DNA of 42,508 nucleotides from an uncultured delta proteobacterium. Lineage in GTDB: Bacteria > Desulfobacterota > Syntrophia > Syntrophales > Smithellaceae. The position numbers and the translations under genes are program-made. The DNA lies in assembly GCA_903904655.1 (NCBI GenBank), contig CAIVDK010000049.1, forward strand, positions 1-42,508, written 5' to 3'. Of this stretch, positions 30,124 through 42,502 are shown piece by piece. Under the pieces are notes generated by a model. That model was not told the origin of the DNA. It was given only the letters and a program-made list of their open reading frames with translations, and made no database searches. Each line of letters starts with the position of its first letter. Position 1 is the stretch's first letter.

Positions 30124-30435
30124 ATGGCCATGAGAGCAAAAAATCAGAATAAAACGGCAGCAGGCATCGACGTCCAGGAAACATGTTTCACGGTCGTCGA
30201 AGAAATATTGGAAAAAAACTTGGCTGATCTGGCTACGGTCTTATCCGTTTCCGACAACGGTAAAAGTAAGCTTCACGAGGAAGTCATGGCCATGGTAGAA
30301 AAAGGTCTGTTCAAAATCGCCCTGCGTCGTTCCAGTTATGTCAAAAGCACAGCGGCGGCGTTTCTGGGTATCAACCGCAATACGTTTACCGATAAGATGG
30401 CCAAATTGGGCATCGACTGCGAAAAAATCAAATAA
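30124..30435 (+). CDS. Fis-type helix-turn-helix protein
   Basis: C-terminal KSTAAAFLGINRNTFTDKMAKLGI resembles Fis/NtrC-C HTH. Confidence 0.7.
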   Translation: MAMRAKNQNKTAAGIDVQETCFTVVEEILEKNLADLATVLSVSDNGKSKLHEEVMAMVEKGLFKIALRRSSYVKSTAAAFLGINRNTFTDKMAKLGIDCEKIK

Positions 30436-30780: not shown

Positions 30781-33700
30781 ATGATTTATACAAAAATGTT
30801 CAATGCTCTAAAGAAAATATTCTTTTTTATTACGCATTGCCAAATTTTTATCGGCGCTCATCCTGATGCTGTTGATAAACCCGCCATCATATTTTCCCCG
30901 CTTCTTCCCGGTCAACTGAATTGCGGTTTTGCCGGATTGATGACGTGCCGCCTGCAGAGAAATCCTTTGGGTATGACAGCCGATCTCTCGCTGATTGCCG
31001 TATGGAAAAAAGTTAAAAGAGCCGGTTTGCAGACTGTCTTCACCAGGGAAAATTCTGCAGGGAATTATTTAAACGGTATGGAAGCCATCCATGCCCTGGA
31101 TATGGCCATAACCCAACTCAAACAGGAAGACGCGCAGGAATTTCTTTTTTTTCAGACAGACAGATCGGCTGATTTGTTTCACACCGCTCAAGACATGACA
31201 AAGTTTCTGATTGATGAAGAGAAGCAGTTGGAAGATCAGGACGCTGTTATCAGCTCTGTTGATCTGGAAATAATCAATAGCCGGCTTCTTTCGCTCAAGG
31301 ACATCTGCTGGGTTCTGGAAAAAGATATTCTGGCCAATCTGCAAAAAATCATCTCGCTTTCCGGCGCAGAGAAATCTTCTGCGCTCAATCCTTCCGCCTT
31401 TCGGAAATACCGGAAACTCAATCTGCTGTTAAACGCGCTGGATCGTCTGGAAGTTCGGGGACGCGACTCGGCGGGTCTTCAGTTAACCTTTGTTCTGAAA
31501 AATGAACAAGTGTTGCAGGAGATCATCCGGCAGATCCGGAAAAACGGATGGGATGATGATTATCAGAGGCGGACGCAAAAAGGCGACCTTGTCAACCAAT
31601 CCATTTTCATGTCAACCGGCCATAAAGACAATCCTGGCAGCGCCAGCGTTACCTTCACCTATAAAACCTTTTCCATCGTCGGCGAGTTGGGACGCAATGT
31701 AGTTGATTTGAGACATTCCATTCAAAAGGATCACATCCTGCAATGCTTTACCGTGGCAGATTCGGATTGTGAAACAGCCCTGACGCATACCCGCTGGGCT
31801 TCCGTCGGCTCCATCACCGAGGAAAATTGCCATCCGGTAAACAATTATACATCCATTCAGTCCAATACTGCCTATCCTCATTACTCCAACACCGATGCGC
31901 AAATCAATGGGGTTCTCAATGGGGATATCGATAATTATCCGGCGCTCCGGAAGGCTTTGGAGGAAAACGGCGACTTGATCGCCTCACAGGTTACCACCGA
32001 CACCAAAATCATTCCGCTGCAAATCGAAAAGTATCTGAAGGCGGGACAGAATCTGACGGAGGCGTTCCGCCTTGCCGTTAATGATTTTGAAGGGTCGCAG
32101 GCCATCGCCATGACCTGTAACCTGGAACCGGGCAAAATGTTTCTGGCGCTCAAGGGCAGCGGCCAGTCCATTTATGTGGGCGTGAATGACGATCAGTATA
32201 TGTTTTCTTCTGAACTTTACGGCTTGGTGGAAGTCATGCCACGTTTCATCAAGATGAACGGTGAAGAAGCGGGCAACGGCAAAGCCGGCGGACAGATTTT
32301 CATCCTGGACCAGAATCGCGGCGGTGGCATAAAAGGGATCACTGCCTGCTTCTATGACGGCGTTGCCATTCCTCTCGCGGACGACGATTTACAAACCGCG
32401 GAAATCACCACACGGGATATCGACCGCAGCGATTACCCGCACTTTTTCCTCAAGGAAATTTCCGAATCCGCCCTGTCCATTAAAAGAACCCTGCGTGGCA
32501 AATACCGAATCGTCGTATCCGGTCAATCCTTCCCTCAGGTCACGTTTAATTTGGGTCCGGATATCGTTCCTTCCGCTGTGCGCAATGGACTTCAAAACGG
32601 CTCAATTAAAAACATCATCGTCATCGGTCATGGAACAGCAGCCGTAGCAGGCCAAGTCTTAGCCGATACGCTGTCTTATTATCTCAAAGGCAGCCACCTC
32701 AACATCCTTGCCCGTATCGCCTCGGAACTAAGCGGTTTCGGACTGAAAGACGATCTGGCTGACACGCTCGTTATTCCGATCACGCAATCGGGCACGACCA
32801 CCGACACCAACCGGGCTGTGGCCATGGCCCGGGAACGCAGTGCGCAAATCATCTCCATCGTCAACCGCAGACAATCGGATATTACCACCAAATCACACGG
32901 CGTCTTTTATACCAGCGACGGCCGAGATATTGAAATGTCCGTTGCCTCCACCAAAGCTTTCTACGCCCAAATTGTCGCGGGACAAGTGCTGGCGCTGTTT
33001 ATTGCCCAGCTCCTGGGATTGCGGACCGATGAAGACATCGCGACAGCGCTCAAACATCTTGAATCCGCGCCACGTCTGATGGAACGAATATTTGACAGTC
33101 GTGAAGCCATTGCCGCCTCGGTGAAAAAAACAGCCGGCAAGCGTTTCTGGGCGATTGTGGGCAGCGGCCCCAACAAGGCGGCGGCGGACGAAATCCGCAT
33201 CAAACTGTCGGAGCTTTGCTACAAAACGATTTCCACGGATATCGTGGAAAACAAAAAACACATCGATCTGTCCGCCGAACCGCTGATTCTGGTATGCGCC
33301 GCCGGCAACCCCGAGGCGGTTGTGGAAGACGTGGTCAAGGATGTCGCGATATTCAGAGCGCATAAGGCCACCACCGTCGTTTTCGCCGATGAAGGCGATC
33401 ACCGATTTGACGCCGTCGCCGACGCGGTCATCGCCATACCCATCGCACCTGCGCCCCTGCCGGTGATCCTCAATACCATGGCCGGCCATCTGTGGGGTTA
33501 CTTTGCGGCGCGTGCCATTGATGAAGAGGCACAGATTTTCCGCGAATTCCGCAGCCGCCTGGCGACGGAATTGACGAAAAGGACAAAAAATAAATTATCT
33601 ATTTTTGACATTTTCGACATGATTGCGGATGTTTCTTTTTGCCGGATCATCAATGATTTTTATGCCCTGTTCAAATCCCAAAGCCAAAACGGAGCGTTCA

Positions 33701-34515
33701 GCGTTCTAGCCGGCCAAACCGTTGCCGATCTGCTGCTCTTGTTGAAATATGCCTCAGGCAAGCTGCCGCTGCAGGACATTCGCCAGGAATTCAAAGGAGA
33801 AGAGGATCTGCTCAATCCGTTTGATCTTCTGGACGCAATGCTCGGAACGGCCATTGATGAGTTGACTCGTCCGATTGACGCCATCCGCCATCAAGCCAAA
33901 ACCGTCACGGTGGGCACCAGCCGGAAGGAAAAAGAACTCAAAGGCATCGTGTTCGACCTGCTCGAAACCCTCAAGTTTTCCGCGAAAAATATGACCTATC
34001 GCAACATTCTATCGATCCATCGCCTCCAGCCTGCCCTAGCAGCGGTACGGGGATATACGGTTTATGATATCAGCGGTCTTGATGAACAGAGTCATCCCGC
34101 GCAAGATTCGACCATTGCAATCCGCGTCAAAAGCGGCGTGGCCAATGATATGAAGTCACGCGCGGATCATTCCACAACGCTGATGGGAGTGAAAAAAACC
34201 ATCGTCAGCACAGGCCATGTCTATCTGGGCCGGGGCAAAACAGACAGCGCCCCGATTATGATCATCCCTCTGCAGGGTGCAGGCGCCCAGATCGTGAACC
34301 TGCTGCTGATTCACATCACCTTCAATGAAACACTGAACCTGTCTGAAAAAATAGAGGTACTGGGATACCGGTATGACGATATCCGCAACCTGATTAATGA
34401 ATACAACCTCGCCTGGAACGACCGGTATTTGGATACTCTGTCGCTGGAATCGCTTTTCAGCGAATCTATTGAAATAATTGCCGGACGGATAAAATCACAG
34501 CACAGCCAATTCTAG
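30781..34515 (+). CDS. Expanded GlmS-like glutamine amidotransferase/double-SIS isomerase (1244 aa)
   Basis: Glutaminase motifs NCGFAG, LEVRGRDSAGLQL, LTHTRWASVGSITEENCHPVNN, LNGDIDNYPALR, TTDTKI; SIS1 ITQSGTTTDTNRAVAMA and GRDIEMSVASTKAFYAQ; SIS2 VGSGPNKAAADEIRIKLSELCYKTI; C-tail RPIDAIRHQAKTVTVG. Confidence 0.8.
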   Translation: MIYTKMFNALKKIFFFITHCQIFIGAHPDAVDKPAIIFSPLLPGQLNCGFAGLMTCRLQRNPLGMTADLSLIAVWKKVKRAGLQTVFTRENSAGNYLNGMEAIHALDMAITQLKQEDAQEFLFFQTDRSADLFHTAQDMTKFLIDEEKQLEDQDAVISSVDLEIINSRLLSLKDICWVLEKDILANLQKIISLSGAEKSSALNPSAFRKYRKLNLLLNALDRLEVRGRDSAGLQLTFVLKNEQVLQEIIRQIRKNGWDDDYQRRTQKGDLVNQSIFMSTGHKDNPGSASVTFTYKTFSIVGELGRNVVDLRHSIQKDHILQCFTVADSDCETALTHTRWASVGSITEENCHPVNNYTSIQSNTAYPHYSNTDAQINGVLNGDIDNYPALRKALEENGDLIASQVTTDTKIIPLQIEKYLKAGQNLTEAFRLAVNDFEGSQAIAMTCNLEPGKMFLALKGSGQSIYVGVNDDQYMFSSELYGLVEVMPRFIKMNGEEAGNGKAGGQIFILDQNRGGGIKGITACFYDGVAIPLADDDLQTAEITTRDIDRSDYPHFFLKEISESALSIKRTLRGKYRIVVSGQSFPQVTFNLGPDIVPSAVRNGLQNGSIKNIIVIGHGTAAVAGQVLADTLSYYLKGSHLNILARIASELSGFGLKDDLADTLVIPITQSGTTTDTNRAVAMARERSAQIISIVNRRQSDITTKSHGVFYTSDGRDIEMSVASTKAFYAQIVAGQVLALFIAQLLGLRTDEDIATALKHLESAPRLMERIFDSREAIAASVKKTAGKRFWAIVGSGPNKAAADEIRIKLSELCYKTISTDIVENKKHIDLSAEPLILVCAAGNPEAVVEDVVKDVAIFRAHKATTVVFADEGDHRFDAVADAVIAIPIAPAPLPVILNTMAGHLWGYFAARAIDEEAQIFREFRSRLATELTKRTKNKLSIFDIFDMIADVSFCRIINDFYALFKSQSQNGAFSVLAGQTVADLLLLLKYASGKLPLQDIRQEFKGEEDLLNPFDLLDAMLGTAIDELTRPIDAIRHQAKTVTVGTSRKEKELKGIVFDLLETLKFSAKNMTYRNILSIHRLQPALAAVRGYTVYDISGLDEQSHPAQDSTIAIRVKSGVANDMKSRADHSTTLMGVKKTIVSTGHVYLGRGKTDSAPIMIIPLQGAGAQIVNLLLIHITFNETLNLSEKIEVLGYRYDDIRNLINEYNLAWNDRYLDTLSLESLFSESIEIIAGRIKSQHSQF

Positions 34516-34662
34516 GCTCAGCATAAACTTGCATAATGGCTGAACCTTTTACAAATTAAGCGCCTGTCCGGATCAGTATGAAAAAATCAAATTTTCGTTT
34601 GACAAAGTAGTTTTTTGAAAGTAGGTATACGGCAAACGATAGCCGATTGCGATGGAAAACGC

Positions 34663-35664
34663 ATGAAAGAGCTTTTTAAGCCTGAAGACATTGAACGAAA
34701 AGTCATCCTCATTCTGAAAATTCTGCACGAAAGCCCGGAACCGATGGGCGCGCGTGTGCTTGCCCGCAGGATGTTGGAGCGCAACGTGCAACTCAGTGAA
34801 AGGACGGTCCGCTATCATCTCAAGATTATGGACGAACGGGGACTTACCCAACTGGTGGGCAGGCGCGACGGCCGGATCATCACAGAGCAGGGGCTTGCCG
34901 AAGTATCCGACGCCCGCGTGCAGGACAAGATTGGCCTTTCCATTTCACGCATAGACATCCTGTCCTTCAAGACGACTTTTGATATCAAAAAGAAACGTGG
35001 TTTGGTGCCGGTTAATATCTCCTTCTTCCCGAAAGAGCAGTTTAATCAAGCCCTGAAGATCATGAAGCCTGTCTTTCAAAAAAAGCTGGCCGTCAGCTCA
35101 CGCGTCGCAGTAGCACAGGCCGGCAAGACACTGGGTGATATTGTGGTGCCTCAGGGCAAAGTGGGATTCGCAACCGTGTGCAGTATCGTGATCAATGGCG
35201 TTCTTTTAAAGCATGGCATTCCCATTGATTCCAAGTTTGGCGGTATTCTCCAGATGAGAAAAGGGGAAATATTGAGATTTGTAGAACTGATTCATTACGC
35301 CGGCTCATCGCTCGATCCTTCGGAAATCTTTATTCGCGGAAAGATGACCGCTGTCGGACAAGTGGTGGCTGAAGGCGAGGGGAAAATTCTGGCCAATTTC
35401 CGTGAAATACCCGCACTGAGCCGGAGCCTGGTTGACCGCGTGGTCGATGACTTTGCCAAGACCGGTATTCATGGCGTCTTATCCATCGGCAATATCGGCC
35501 ATCCTGTGTGTCAGACCCATGTGGATATGAATAAGATCGGGATGATTCTTATCGGCGGCTTGAACCCGGTTGCTGCGGTCGGTGAAGAAGGTTTTGATGT
35601 GGACAATAAAGCCATGTCCACGGTGATGGAATTTGAAAAGCTAAAGGATATTGAGACGCTTTAG
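34663..35664 (+). CDS. NrpR-type (DUF128) winged-helix regulator
   Basis: N-terminal HTH ERKVILILKILHESPEPMGARVLARRMLERNVQLSERTVRYHLKIMDERGL, then an NrpR-like effector domain (GKVGFATVCSIVINGVLLKHGIPIDSKFGG, IHYAGSSLDPSEIFI, IGMILIGGLNPVAAVGEEG). ATG 34663 preferred over TTG 34615. Confidence 0.75.
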   Translation: MKELFKPEDIERKVILILKILHESPEPMGARVLARRMLERNVQLSERTVRYHLKIMDERGLTQLVGRRDGRIITEQGLAEVSDARVQDKIGLSISRIDILSFKTTFDIKKKRGLVPVNISFFPKEQFNQALKIMKPVFQKKLAVSSRVAVAQAGKTLGDIVVPQGKVGFATVCSIVINGVLLKHGIPIDSKFGGILQMRKGEILRFVELIHYAGSSLDPSEIFIRGKMTAVGQVVAEGEGKILANFREIPALSRSLVDRVVDDFAKTGIHGVLSIGNIGHPVCQTHVDMNKIGMILIGGLNPVAAVGEEGFDVDNKAMSTVMEFEKLKDIETL

Positions 35665-35736
35665 ATATCGCGAGAAATGTCGTGAGCATATAAACGCATC
35701 GCGGCATGTCATTGAATACGGTTGTATGGAGGCGCT

Positions 35737-36993
35737 ATGGATTTTAAGCCGAAATCCTATGAAAAAATTTGTCAACTGATCGATCGAGGCGTGGATATTC
35801 CCAACCCCGGAACACTCGATATCGGCAATGAAATCAATGTCGATCAAATTTCGGGAAAGGGTGTTACGATTTATCCGGGTTGCCGGATCTATGGCGCAAA
35901 AACCGTTATTTCATCCGGCTGCAAGCTGGGCTACGAGGCGCCGGTCACGATTGAAGACTGCCAACTTGGACCGGCAGTCGAGCTCAAGGGCGGCTTCTTC
36001 AGCAAATCTGTTTTTTTGGAAAAAGCAAATATGGGCATGGGCGCGCATGTCCGTGAAGGATGCATTCTGGAGGAAGAAGCCGGTGGCGCCCATTGTGTAG
36101 GATTAAAACAAACCATTCTTTTCCCCTTCGTAACACTGGGCAGCTTGATCAACTTCTGTGACTGCCTGATGGCCGGCGGCACCAGCCGAAGCAATCATAG
36201 CGAAGTGGGAAGCTCCTATATCCATTTCAATTTCACGCCGGATGCCGACAAAACAACGCCTTCAATGCTTGGCGATGTCCCCCGGGGGGTGATGCTCAAC
36301 CAGCCCCCCATTTTTCTAGGCGGTCAGGGAGGGATCATCGGCCCAGTGCGTCTGGGATACGGCAATATCGTAGCGGCGGGCTCCATCCTGCGGCATGATT
36401 ATTCCGGGGACAATCAACTAATCTTCGAGAAGGCCCCGGCAAGCAGCGTGAAGGACTTCGTTCCAGCAGCCTACCCCGGGCTCGGTCGTGTTGTGGAAAA
36501 CAATATTCTCTATCTGGCCAACCTGACGGCTCTTGAGTCATGGTACACACATGTCAGAAAGCCGTTTCTGGAAACCCAACCGTTCGGGCTTCTCTTGTAT
36601 GCAGGTGTCGCGGAACAACTTTCCGCAGCGAAAAAGGAACGTCTCAAAAGGTTAAAGGCGCTGGCGGAGAAAGCCAAAATGGCAGCCAGCAAAAACCGGC
36701 AGGGCGCAGCAGCCGGTGCAAGGCAGGAGCTCTCTGGGCAAATCGGCTTCATAGAAGGACTCTTCACGGGGAAAATGCCGGACGTCCTGACCGCGACAGA
36801 TCGATCCCGTGAGGCCTTTCTCAATGATTTCGAAAAGGCTACAGGAAACAGCAAAGCGAATTACCTCACGGCCATTCAGGGGCTGCCCGTGGAGATTTCG
36901 TTAAAAGGTGTTATATGGTTAAATGGCATAGTAAATGCTCTTGCCCAAAAGGTCACGCAGGCTCTGCCGTCGCTGGATTTATTCAAAAAATAA
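35737..36993 (+). CDS. Left-handed beta-helix (hexapeptide) protein resembling sugar-phosphate acetyltransferase/pyrophosphorylase C-domain
   Basis: Imperfect hexapeptide repeats (GKGVTIYPGCRIYGAKTVISSGCKLGYEAPVTIEDCQLGPAVELKGG); GGAGG RBS before ATG 35737; no N-terminal nucleotidyltransferase signature. Confidence 0.65.
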   Translation: MDFKPKSYEKICQLIDRGVDIPNPGTLDIGNEINVDQISGKGVTIYPGCRIYGAKTVISSGCKLGYEAPVTIEDCQLGPAVELKGGFFSKSVFLEKANMGMGAHVREGCILEEEAGGAHCVGLKQTILFPFVTLGSLINFCDCLMAGGTSRSNHSEVGSSYIHFNFTPDADKTTPSMLGDVPRGVMLNQPPIFLGGQGGIIGPVRLGYGNIVAAGSILRHDYSGDNQLIFEKAPASSVKDFVPAAYPGLGRVVENNILYLANLTALESWYTHVRKPFLETQPFGLLLYAGVAEQLSAAKKERLKRLKALAEKAKMAASKNRQGAAAGARQELSGQIGFIEGLFTGKMPDVLTATDRSREAFLNDFEKATGNSKANYLTAIQGLPVEISLKGVIWLNGIVNALAQKVTQALPSLDLFKK

Positions 36994-37053: not shown

Positions 37054-38406
37054 ATGATGGGGAAATTATTTGGAACCGACGGAATCAGAGGAGAAGCCAA
37101 CCGCTATCCGATGAACGCGGCAATTGCCTTCAGTGTCGGGCAGGCCGTCGCACACCTGTTTAAAAAAGACAAACACCGTGCCCACGTGATCATTGGAAAG
37201 GATACCCGGATTTCGGGATACATGCTGGAGAGTTCACTGGAAGCGGGAATCACGTCCATGGGAGGGTGCCCCATCCTTGTCGGCGTGCTGCCCACCCCGG
37301 GAATTGCCTTCATCGCCCAAAGCATGCGGGCTGACGCCGGCATTGTCATTTCCGCTTCACACAATCCCTTCCAGGATAATGGCCTGAAAATTTTTGGCGG
37401 TGACGGTTTTAAATTGACCGATGAAGAGGAAGACAACATTGAAAACCTGATCCTTAATAAAAAGCTTTCTGAACTGATGCCGACAGCCAGCGGCATGGGG
37501 AAAGCCGCCCGCCTGGATGATGTTAACGGACGTTATATCGTTTTTTTGAAAAATTCCTTTCCCCGTAATCTCTCCATGGAGGGGATGAAAATCGTTTTGG
37601 ATACCGCCAACGGCGCAACATACAAAGTGGCACCTAACGCCTTTATTGAACTGGGCGCCGATGTTGAAGTCATTCACAACACGCCGGACGGTGTAAACAT
37701 CAACGCCAAGTGCGGCTCACAGCACACAGAGGACCTCAGGAAGAAAGTCGTGGAAAGCGGCGCGGCCATTGGCCTGGCCTTTGACGGGGACGGCGACCGC
37801 CTCATTGCCGTGGATGAAAAGGGTAACGAGATCACCGGTGATCAGATTCTCATCATCTGTGCCAATATCTTGAAAAGAGAAGGCAAGTTGAAAAACGATC
37901 TTCTGGTCAGCACGGTGATGAGTAACCTCGGCTTGAAGGTTGCCTGCAAGAAATACGGCTTTAAGCACCATGCCTCAAAAGTGGGAGACCGCTATGTTCT
38001 CGAAGATATGCTGCGGATGGGATCCGTGATCGGTGGTGAGGAAGCAGGTCATATGATCTTTCTGGATCATCACACCACGGGAGACGGCATTGTTGCCGCC
38101 ATGCAGCTCGTTGCGGCGATGGCGAAAGAAGGCAAACCCCTTTCCGAACTGGCGCGCATGATGGATGTTTTCCCGCAGAAATTGATCAATGTTGATGTCA
38201 AAATCAAGCCGGATATTGATAAAGTCCCGAAGCTGGTAGAAGCCATCTCACAAATAGAAAAAGAACTGGGTGAAGAAGGACGCGTTCTGGTCCGGTATTC
38301 CGGCACTCAGAATATGTGTCGTGTCATGGTGGAAGGACCTTCCGATCTGGTAACCGCAAAATATTGTCAACAGCTCGCCGATATCGTAAAAAGTGAACTG
38401 GGATAG
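37054..38406 (+). CDS. glmM: Phosphoglucosamine mutase
   Basis: KLFGTDGIRGEANRYPM, ISASHNPFQDNGLKIFGGDGFKL (phospho-Ser), AFDGDGDR, RYSGTQNMCRVMVEG; AAGGAG RBS. Confidence 0.92.
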   Translation: MMGKLFGTDGIRGEANRYPMNAAIAFSVGQAVAHLFKKDKHRAHVIIGKDTRISGYMLESSLEAGITSMGGCPILVGVLPTPGIAFIAQSMRADAGIVISASHNPFQDNGLKIFGGDGFKLTDEEEDNIENLILNKKLSELMPTASGMGKAARLDDVNGRYIVFLKNSFPRNLSMEGMKIVLDTANGATYKVAPNAFIELGADVEVIHNTPDGVNINAKCGSQHTEDLRKKVVESGAAIGLAFDGDGDRLIAVDEKGNEITGDQILIICANILKREGKLKNDLLVSTVMSNLGLKVACKKYGFKHHASKVGDRYVLEDMLRMGSVIGGEEAGHMIFLDHHTTGDGIVAAMQLVAAMAKEGKPLSELARMMDVFPQKLINVDVKIKPDIDKVPKLVEAISQIEKELGEEGRVLVRYSGTQNMCRVMVEGPSDLVTAKYCQQLADIVKSELG

Positions 38407-38427: not shown

Positions 38428-39387
38428 ATGGGAACAACCGTTTTTGTTACACGAGACTTTGCGCACATGAGTGAAGTGGCAGCAGATTTTGTCATCAAGA
38501 AAACGATCGTCATCCTTAAATCAAAAAATGGAGCTGTTTTGGGGCTGGCAACGGGGAATTCACCCACGGGGCTCTATAAGCACTTCGCCAAAGCGGCCAA
38601 CGAGGGCCGGTTTGATTCTGGACGGATCCGCAGTTTTAATCTCGACGAATATGTCGGCCTGCCGGGCGATAATATTCAGCAGCGGGTTCTGCACCCCGAG
38701 AGTTACGCTTATTTCATGATTCAGGAACTTTTCAGTCATCTCAATAAGAAATTTATTGAAACCCGCGTGCCCTACGGCTCGCTGATTGACCAGAAAATAT
38801 TGATCAAAGAATTGAAAGAAAACAAAAACGATTGGGAATTCAAAGGCACAGACGCGGGAAAGTCCATTGCCATCAAGGCAAAACCGGCATCCGCCTATCT
38901 GGCCTGGATCTGGAAAGAAATTCTGGACGGCTACGCCCGGAAAATAAAATCGGCCGGCGGAATCGACCTGCAGATTATTGGCGTGGGCGGTCGCGGCCAT
39001 GTGGCGTTCCACGAATCAGGCATTCCTTTTAAAGGCAGTTCGGTGCTGCTGGTCAAACTCGACGACAACACGATTGCAAATGCCGTTGCCGACGGACATT
39101 TCAGCAAAAAAACAGATTCACCGCAGTATGCCATCAGCATGGGAGCGGAGCTGGTTTATCAGGCCAGAACGGTCGTTTTGGTAGCCAGCGGCCAGCGAAA
39201 AACAGAGTCTGTGACCCGCTCGCTTCTGGGTGATGTAACCCCTGAAATTCCCATATCGCATGGTCAGCAATACGCGAAACAAGGCGGGGAGTTGATTTAT
39301 GTTCTCGACCGCGTTGCGGCCGGAGGCCTTCTGGCCAATCCGAAGGAACTCAAAGACAGGGGCATCGTTTTAAAGAACATGGCGTAA
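38428..39387 (+). CDS. NagB-like glucosamine-6-phosphate deaminase/isomerase family protein, divergent
   Basis: LGLATGNSPTGLYKHF, SFNLDEYVGL, GVGGRGHVAFHESGIPF; insertion between HPESYAYFMI and the RGH motif. Confidence 0.75.
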   Translation: MGTTVFVTRDFAHMSEVAADFVIKKTIVILKSKNGAVLGLATGNSPTGLYKHFAKAANEGRFDSGRIRSFNLDEYVGLPGDNIQQRVLHPESYAYFMIQELFSHLNKKFIETRVPYGSLIDQKILIKELKENKNDWEFKGTDAGKSIAIKAKPASAYLAWIWKEILDGYARKIKSAGGIDLQIIGVGGRGHVAFHESGIPFKGSSVLLVKLDDNTIANAVADGHFSKKTDSPQYAISMGAELVYQARTVVLVASGQRKTESVTRSLLGDVTPEIPISHGQQYAKQGGELIYVLDRVAAGGLLANPKELKDRGIVLKNMA

Positions 39388-41080: not shown

Positions 41081-42502
41081 CTATGGCATATTGAAAGGGA
41101 TGGTAATTTTATACACGCCGCCCGATAGAACGGTCTCTACCGGAAAGGGTGCTTTTTCGTAAACTTTCAACATGGCCCTGTTGTTTTCCAGGACATCGGC
41201 CTTGAATCCGGCCATGCCTTCTTCCCGGGCCGCCCGTATTAAAAGATTGAAAAGATAAGTTGAAATACCCATGCCCTGATAGTGTTCATCCACAATAAAC
41301 GCGGTATCGGCAAAGGGATCTCCCTGCGACCTAGCATAGCGGCCCTCGCCGATAATTTTTTCAACGCCGGACTCATCAATAATGGCCACAATAGACATGG
41401 TGAAGCGGTAATCCACATTAACATATTCCTGCATCTTTTTATGAGGCATGGTCTTGATCGGGCTGAAATAACGGTAATAAACCGACTGGTCGGAAAACCG
41501 GTAAAACAACCGCCGCATCTCTTCCTCGTCGGACGGCCTGATCGCCCGGAAGCGGACGGTCACACTGTCTTTGAATCTATGCGAACAGGCGATTTTATCC
41601 GGATAAAGATGGCCGGACTCGACAAAATATATTTGATCAGCGTAAATCATCTTCGCTTCTTTGGCCTGCCTGACCAACTCGGCGCGGTCGTCCGGATGCG
41701 CAATTTCAATGAGCGCCTGGGCCCGCTCGCGCAATGTCTTGCCCATTAAATGGGCCACGCCATATTCTGTAACAACAACGTCCATGGATTCACGATTGGT
41801 AAACTGGAAGGGATATTTATCCAAAGAAAGAAGAATGTTCGGTTTTCCCTTGCGATTGCGGCTGGGCAGGGAAAAAATGGTCCGGCCGTTTTTGGACAGC
41901 GCCGCACCCCAAAAGAGTTCCTGAACGTTGCCGGGACCGGCGGTCACATTGCCCTTGCCGGTATGCAGCGCTATATCACCGGTCAGATCGACTTTCCGCG
42001 CCGGGAAAATGGCAACCATGTTGTCATTGAGGCCGATGGTCCGGGGGTCCATCACAATATCCTGTGGCTGAAATTCCACCAGCGCATTTAAATCCAGCCA
42101 AGCCATCAGCTCCTTAGTGCCGATGACGTAGGACGCGCAGGTCTTGCCGCGAAAGACGCCTTTATAACGGTTAGTAATAGCGCCACTCTTGACCAGTTCC
42201 ATCAGCGCGTCGGTAAAGAAAGGAGAATGAACACCCAGATTCTTTTTCGTGGCCAGCGTTTTGGCCAGTGCTTCAAAGAGCGGCCCGATCCCATAGGAAA
42301 TGCAGTTGCCATCCTGGATGACTGAAGCGACATTGACGGCGATTTTCAGATAGATTTCCTGCAACGGCCAGCGCTCGACATAATATGGTGGCTCGGTCGC
42401 CTCGACCAGGTAGTGGAAGTCATCCATATTCACCAGCGTGTCGCCCATCGTCCGGGGAATCTGGGAATTGATTTCACCGACAACGATTTTAGCCATTTCC
42501 AT
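41081..42502 (-). CDS. Acetyl-CoA hydrolase/transferase-GNAT fusion (5' end likely outside the window)
   Basis: CoA-transferase motifs (DGNCISYGIG, GKGNVTAGPGNVQELFWGAALSKNGRTIFSLPSR, VVTEYGVAHLMGKTLRERAQALIEIAHPDDR), then GNAT (VRFRAIRPSDEEEMRRLFYRFS, VDEHYQGMGISTYLFNLLIRAAREEGM). Confidence 0.85.
   Translation of the reverse strand: MEMAKIVVGEINSQIPRTMGDTLVNMDDFHYLVEATEPPYYVERWPLQEIYLKIAVNVASVIQDGNCISYGIGPLFEALAKTLATKKNLGVHSPFFTDALMELVKSGAITNRYKGVFRGKTCASYVIGTKELMAWLDLNALVEFQPQDIVMDPRTIGLNDNMVAIFPARKVDLTGDIALHTGKGNVTAGPGNVQELFWGAALSKNGRTIFSLPSRNRKGKPNILLSLDKYPFQFTNRESMDVVVTEYGVAHLMGKTLRERAQALIEIAHPDDRAELVRQAKEAKMIYADQIYFVESGHLYPDKIACSHRFKDSVTVRFRAIRPSDEEEMRRLFYRFSDQSVYYRYFSPIKTMPHKKMQEYVNVDYRFTMSIVAIIDESGVEKIIGEGRYARSQGDPFADTAFIVDEHYQGMGISTYLFNLLIRAAREEGMAGFKADVLENNRAMLKVYEKAPFPVETVLSGGVYKITIPFNMP

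Follow-up and report, generated by a model that had tools for sequence, protein, structure and literature searches.

A double-length GlmS-like protein with a conserved pro-region replaces canonical GlmS in a class of Desulfobacterota

Glucosamine-6-phosphate synthase (GlmS) makes glucosamine-6-phosphate (GlcN6P) and commits carbon and nitrogen to the bacterial cell wall. The question raised by this locus was whether a protein about twice the length of the ordinary enzyme is the functional GlmS of its host. The window, i.e., the whole 42,508-nucleotide stretch that was analysed, belongs to a Smithella-like Syntrophales metagenome-assembled genome (MAG) of 473 contigs. It carries an open reading frame that the first-pass annotation had described as a GlmS-like enzyme with large insertions; this description, together with the frame, its coordinates, and the glutaminase and SIS motifs in the same order as in GlmS, was borne out by the sequence, Pfam, and profile alignment.

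30781..34515, forward strand: giant GlmS-like protein of 1244 aa whose start codon lies 47 codons ahead of the catalytic Cys (Pfam, NCBIfam, profile alignment)

The Pfam domains recognized were SIS (1.3e-14), GATase_6 (1.5e-8), and GATase_7 (5.7e-7). The NCBIfam glmS model (TIGR01135/NF001484) matched with 231.5 bits (E 1.9e-68), which is under its curated cut-off of 418 bits. Homology to GlmS spanned both catalytic halves, and hhalign aligned 30 giant homologues to three canonical GlmS sequences, including that of E. coli, with a probability of 100 and an identity of 26% across 530 columns. No glmS ribozyme or other Rfam RNA was found at gathering thresholds within the window, promoters and terminators around the gene were no more frequent than in shuffles, and no description of a long GlmS or of one with a pro-region was found in the open-access literature. 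The giant is divided as follows, the mature protein being numbered with Cys48 as residue 1.

30781..30921, forward strand: pro-region of 47 residues, motif GxxPxxVxxP[AS]IIFFP...L[NC] followed by C (conservation, pN/pS)
30922..30924, forward strand: codon for Cys48, the Ntn nucleophile and Cys1 of the mature protein (invariant in 59/59 homologues; directly after the start codon in L097, L105, L106, and L107)
30949..31416, forward strand: insert of about 155 residues, entirely helical, separating the Cys1 strand from the RGRDSAG helix (AF2 model)
31417..32256, forward strand: rest of the class II glutaminase domain with RGRDSAG, HTRWAS, LNGDIDN, and TTDT (GATase_6/7; alignment to E. coli GlmS)
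32557..33021, forward strand: first SIS domain with ITQSGTTTDT and SVASTKAF (Pfam SIS, profile alignment, structure match)
33064..33525, forward strand: second SIS domain with the E481, K485, E488, and H504 equivalents (profile alignment; invariance)
33526..33873, forward strand: second helical insert, about 115 residues long, after the second SIS domain and before the C-tail (AF2 model, lengths)
33874..33915, forward strand: internalised C-tail with the Lys603 equivalent (IDAIRHQAKTVTVG; Lys codon 33898-33900; Lys invariant in 59/59; motif match)
33919..34512, forward strand: C-terminal domain of 198 residues, predicted GAF/PAS-like fold (AF2, Foldseek)

The first helical insert ends at about residue 165 and the second comprises residues 869-984; for neither was a Pfam match or a convincing sequence homologue in Pfam or the PDB found. 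The long insertion between Cys and RGRDSAG, put at about 165 aa by the first-pass annotation, is present and measures 178 residues by our count, compared to 25 in E. coli GlmS. This distance was 158-181 residues in 58 of the 59 homologues, the spacing of landmarks was near-constant family-wide, and the stretch from RGRDSAG to HTRWAS was also longer than in canonical GlmS. The AF2 model of the mature protein (mean pLDDT 81, pTM 0.72) predicted a double-SIS isomerase fold, and the AlphaFold comparison proposed earlier placed the predicted isomerase half close to solved GlmS isomerase domains (Foldseek TM 0.81-0.87, about 0.86). The likeness previously noted to the tail of E. coli GlmS held at the level of the motif, RHQAKTVTVG matching canonical PRNLAKSVTVE tails, but not as a true C-terminus: about 200 residues follow the tail (about 204 after the catalytic Lys), so that this Lys, unlike that of GlmS, is not at the extreme C-terminus. 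Model confidence was low in the C-tail region, with a pLDDT of about 38 just after the tail.

The catalytic residues could be traced in the giant. In E. coli GlmS numbering, the positions aligned by hhalign were Arg73, Trp74, Asn98, Gly99, Asp123, Thr302, Gln348, Ser349, Thr352, Val399, and Ser401, as well as Glu481, Lys485, Glu488, and His504 of the isomerase. Cys1, Ala602, and Lys603 lay outside the hhalign columns and were assigned by motif, in the case of Lys603 by RxxAKxVTV, whose first position is R or K in the giants and whose Lys is invariant (59/59). All of these residues were invariant in the 59 giant homologues, in agreement with the earlier view that the active sites are intact and the chemistry retained, a view that the similarity of the modelled isomerase to solved GlmS also favours. 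The first-shell substitutions found in the giants (S303 to A, H77 mostly to V, and S347 to T/S) concern neither acid-base nor Schiff-base residues; S303 and S347 are located at the phosphate site and H77 at the glutaminase site.

Near-constant insert lengths and invariant catalytic residues mark the giants as a defined subfamily rather than a product of gene decay or mis-assembly. The source is a MAG of many contigs, which could raise the suspicion that the inserts arose from sequencing or assembly errors or that the giant is a decaying paralogue; we rejected an artefact, a pseudogene, and a decaying paralogue as next to impossible, given that landmark lengths are conserved, length and architecture are alike in more than 100 genomes from many independent assemblies, including single-contig ones, and purifying selection is strong. 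A split gene in one relative (L067) was likewise rejected, the interruption being an assembly gap of N bases.

The catalytic Cys is residue 48 of the predicted protein, has no adjacent start codon, and is preceded by a conserved pro-region that was absent from the first-pass annotation. The same holds for 55 of the 59 homologues, which have no start codon at the Cys and bear a related upstream stretch, the start at -47 being common to most Syntrophales homologues. The pN/pS was 0.51 in the pro-region, 0.89 in the codons preceding the start, and 0.16 in the first SIS domain, which indicates that the pro-region is translated and under selection, although less tightly than the SIS domain. Its GxxPxxVxxP[AS]IIFFP motif was strong, and the Pro at -8 was invariant (54/54). 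The remaining four homologues (L097, L105, L106, L107) have no pro-region and begin with Met-Cys, encoded with ATG or GTG, so that the Cys is residue 2 and would be freed by Met removal as in canonical GlmS, unlike Cys48 of the protein in the window. Three of these come from family f73, at or close to the base of the tree, and the fourth, from a single-contig genome (G285), is nested among carriers of the pro-region; the Met-Cys form thus occurs at two separate places in the tree.

The pro-region is probably cleaved, Cys48 becoming the N-terminus; the main evidence is that a single family contains both Met-Cys and pro-Cys forms. The analogy with those class II amidotransferases in which leading N-terminal residues are removed autocatalytically (PMC9140057) points in the same direction. 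The absence of a start codon at the Cys in most homologues would also be compatible with a pro-region that is never removed, a glutaminase half that is inactive, and an enzyme that uses free ammonia, the invariant Pro then being structural. We regard this reading as improbable, since an idle glutaminase would not need the Cys1, Arg73, Asn98, Gly99, and Asp123 equivalents that are invariant in all 59 homologues, and since the scattered Met-Cys relatives and the known amidotransferases with cleaved N-terminal residues speak against it.

Regarding distribution, the giant was the only GlmS found in its own genome. Within the class it was present in 129 of 149 genomes (82 of the 92 good ones), and a GlmS over the 418-bit cut-off was found in none of the 149. 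The phylum sample consisted of 394 Desulfobacterota genomes that were at least 90% complete, with counts taken from search listings: 55 carried the giant and 318 carried canonical GlmS, i.e., the giant only in 54, canonical GlmS only in 317, both in one (G303), and neither form over threshold in 22. Missing contigs probably explain the last group, as most of these genomes are drafts. The mutual exclusion gave a Fisher p of about 3e-47, a value that is too small because the genomes are related; the real argument is the repetition of the pattern across many families. In genus g109, the giant was present in G213 and G463, and canonical GlmS was found instead in G447, which looks like a replacement. 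The canonical GlmS of G447 (L085) is divergent, with 570 bits and a branch length of 3.9, and this divergence suggests acquisition from elsewhere. Among the matches listed from plasmid records, only canonical-type GlmS was present, none covering 80% of the query. In a tree with canonical GlmS the giants formed one clade (support 100/100) on a long stem, the root being uncertain because the branches are long. The giant is the replacement of canonical GlmS in the whole class, one of syntrophs, and in several other Desulfobacterota families; what had been taken for one odd enzyme is lineage-wide and not a singleton.

On its 3' side, the giant is followed by genes encoding an NrpR-like regulator, a GlmU-C-like beta-helix protein, GlmM, a NagB-like protein, and CTP synthase, two of which are specified here.

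35722..36993, forward strand: left-handed beta-helix protein similar to the acetyltransferase part of GlmU
37054..38406, forward strand: glmM, phosphoglucosamine mutase (NCBIfam TIGR01455, 577 bits, over cut-off)

The GlmU-C-like protein has diverged strongly (47 bits) and carries about 170 additional residues at its C-terminus; its gene was found close to the giant at 26 of the 31 Syntrophales loci and at a small number of the more distant loci. No fused GlmU was found in the own genome, which bears a separate uridylyltransferase half (G000:C67:28672-29391). The two halves of GlmU appeared as separate genes in most giant carriers tested, while family f73, with Met-Cys giants, and G212 keep a fused GlmU. 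Other genes of the region were also recorded. A 103-aa orphan Fis/NtrC-type HTH protein (30124-30435, forward strand), possibly a dedicated regulator, is encoded just upstream of the giant, or of a preceding GlmU-C-like gene, in most Syntrophales loci. An NrpR-type regulator with NRD1_2 and a winged helix (34615-35664, forward strand) adjoins this glutamine-using enzyme in a subset of Smithella-like loci; NrpR is known from nitrogen control in methanogens. The NagB-like protein (38428-39387, forward strand) scored below family cut-offs with a match in two pieces; it could be a GlcN6P deaminase that has diverged, or a related protein with a different role. Finally, an open frame (41081-42502, reverse strand) in which a CoA-transferase C-terminal domain is fused to a GNAT acetyltransferase domain reaches the end of the window and contig, where it may be cut.

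Given that giant and canonical GlmS coexist in only one of the 394 genomes, the giant most likely performs the ordinary GlmS reaction (Fru6P + Gln to GlcN6P + Glu). A changed acceptor is possible because of the low identity to GlmS (about 26%) and the very long stem branch. According to this alternative, the giant would be a glutamine-dependent SIS enzyme acting on another sugar phosphate, and GlcN6P would come from elsewhere, for example from the NagB-like neighbour running in reverse with ammonia; the altered S303 and S347 positions and the presence of the NagB-like gene in the cluster agree with it. It is nevertheless unlikely, in view of the near-perfect mutual exclusion with canonical GlmS, the swap inside genus g109, the conserved sugar-site residues, and the clustering with glmM and the GlmU-C-like gene, and the NagB-like gene itself adjoins the giant in a minority of loci only. 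For similar reasons, the substrate shift proposed in the first-pass annotation was not upheld, as the giant is the sole GlmS in almost every carrier and canonical GlmS takes its place within g109. We therefore consider it likely that the giant is the functional glucosamine-6-phosphate synthase of its host, a lineage-wide replacement of GlmS with pro-region processing.

With residue roles taken from known GlmS biochemistry, the ordinary reaction would proceed as follows in the giant. The chain would be made with its 47-residue pro-region, which would be cut off, probably by Cys48 itself, to give the free Ntn nucleophile Cys1. Together with the Arg73, Asn98/Gly99, and Asp123 equivalents, Cys1 would hydrolyse glutamine, and the ammonia would pass the Trp74 gate to reach the isomerase made up of the two SIS domains. 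There, the Lys in the internal C-tail would form a Schiff base with ring-opened Fru6P, and the Glu488/His504 equivalents would carry out the isomerase chemistry.

The domain behind the tail (residues 1000-1197) had no Pfam match and no convincing sequence homologue in Pfam or the PDB. Modelled alone by AF2, it reached a pLDDT of 93.7 and a pTM of 0.88, with an order of helices and strands resembling GAF and PAS sensor folds. Foldseek returned weak matches only, with a best E of 1.6e-3; GAF domains accounted for many of them and PAS domains for some, so the designation GAF/PAS-like is a lead. The domain was confined to giants in 118 genomes, except for two short pieces: one of 35.8 bits in a 154-aa frame beside a giant and one of 45 bits at a contig end. 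The helical inserts and this domain probably gate or tune the enzyme, through assembly or a bound metabolite, and the regulated enzyme envisaged in the first-pass annotation remains plausible to that extent, given the conserved extra domains and the GAF/PAS-like C-terminus. More speculatively, the giant could be a zymogen GlmS with its own metabolite sensor, in which the glutaminase would be held inactive by the pro-region until its cleavage, and GlcN6P synthesis would be coupled to a cell signal by the GAF/PAS-like domain that follows the internalised tail. Known GlmS controls include glmS ribozymes, sRNAs, and GlmR; a zymogen-plus-sensor GlmS, if real, would be a distinct control of cell-wall entry replacing these.

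Since the giant scores below the glmS cut-off, surveys using the standard threshold would record its carriers as lacking GlcN6P synthesis. A survey of the cut-off type reported GlmS or GlmU as missing in many genomes, though in other phyla (PMC7725333). The coexistence of Met-Cys and pro-Cys forms also makes the family a direct test of the gain or loss of a pro-region in an Ntn amidotransferase, as well as of how GlmS is affected by an internal C-tail and by the addition of a sensor-like domain.

When compared to GlmS/GFAT (EC 2.6.1.16; E. coli GlmS 2J6H, human GFAT-1), the giant shares the order of glutaminase, SIS, SIS, and VTV tail, the catalytic residues, the isomerase fold (TM about 0.86), and the position of sole GlmS of the genome. 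Its own features are the double length, the pro-region before the Cys, the insert of about 155 aa after Cys1, the helical insert before the C-tail, the internal tail, and the extra GAF/PAS-like domain. PurF and GltB are class II amidotransferases with propeptides, and the giant would resemble them in having a Cys nucleophile behind residues that need removal to make it N-terminal; it differs in being a GlmS-type SIS enzyme, with a putative cleavage. In relation to the canonical fused GlmU, the neighbouring protein (35722..36993) matches the acetyltransferase half, but the two halves appear as separate genes in most giant carriers tested. The best reading is that the GlmS reaction itself is the known one, and that what is new here is a heavily enlarged form of GlmS displacing the standard enzyme.
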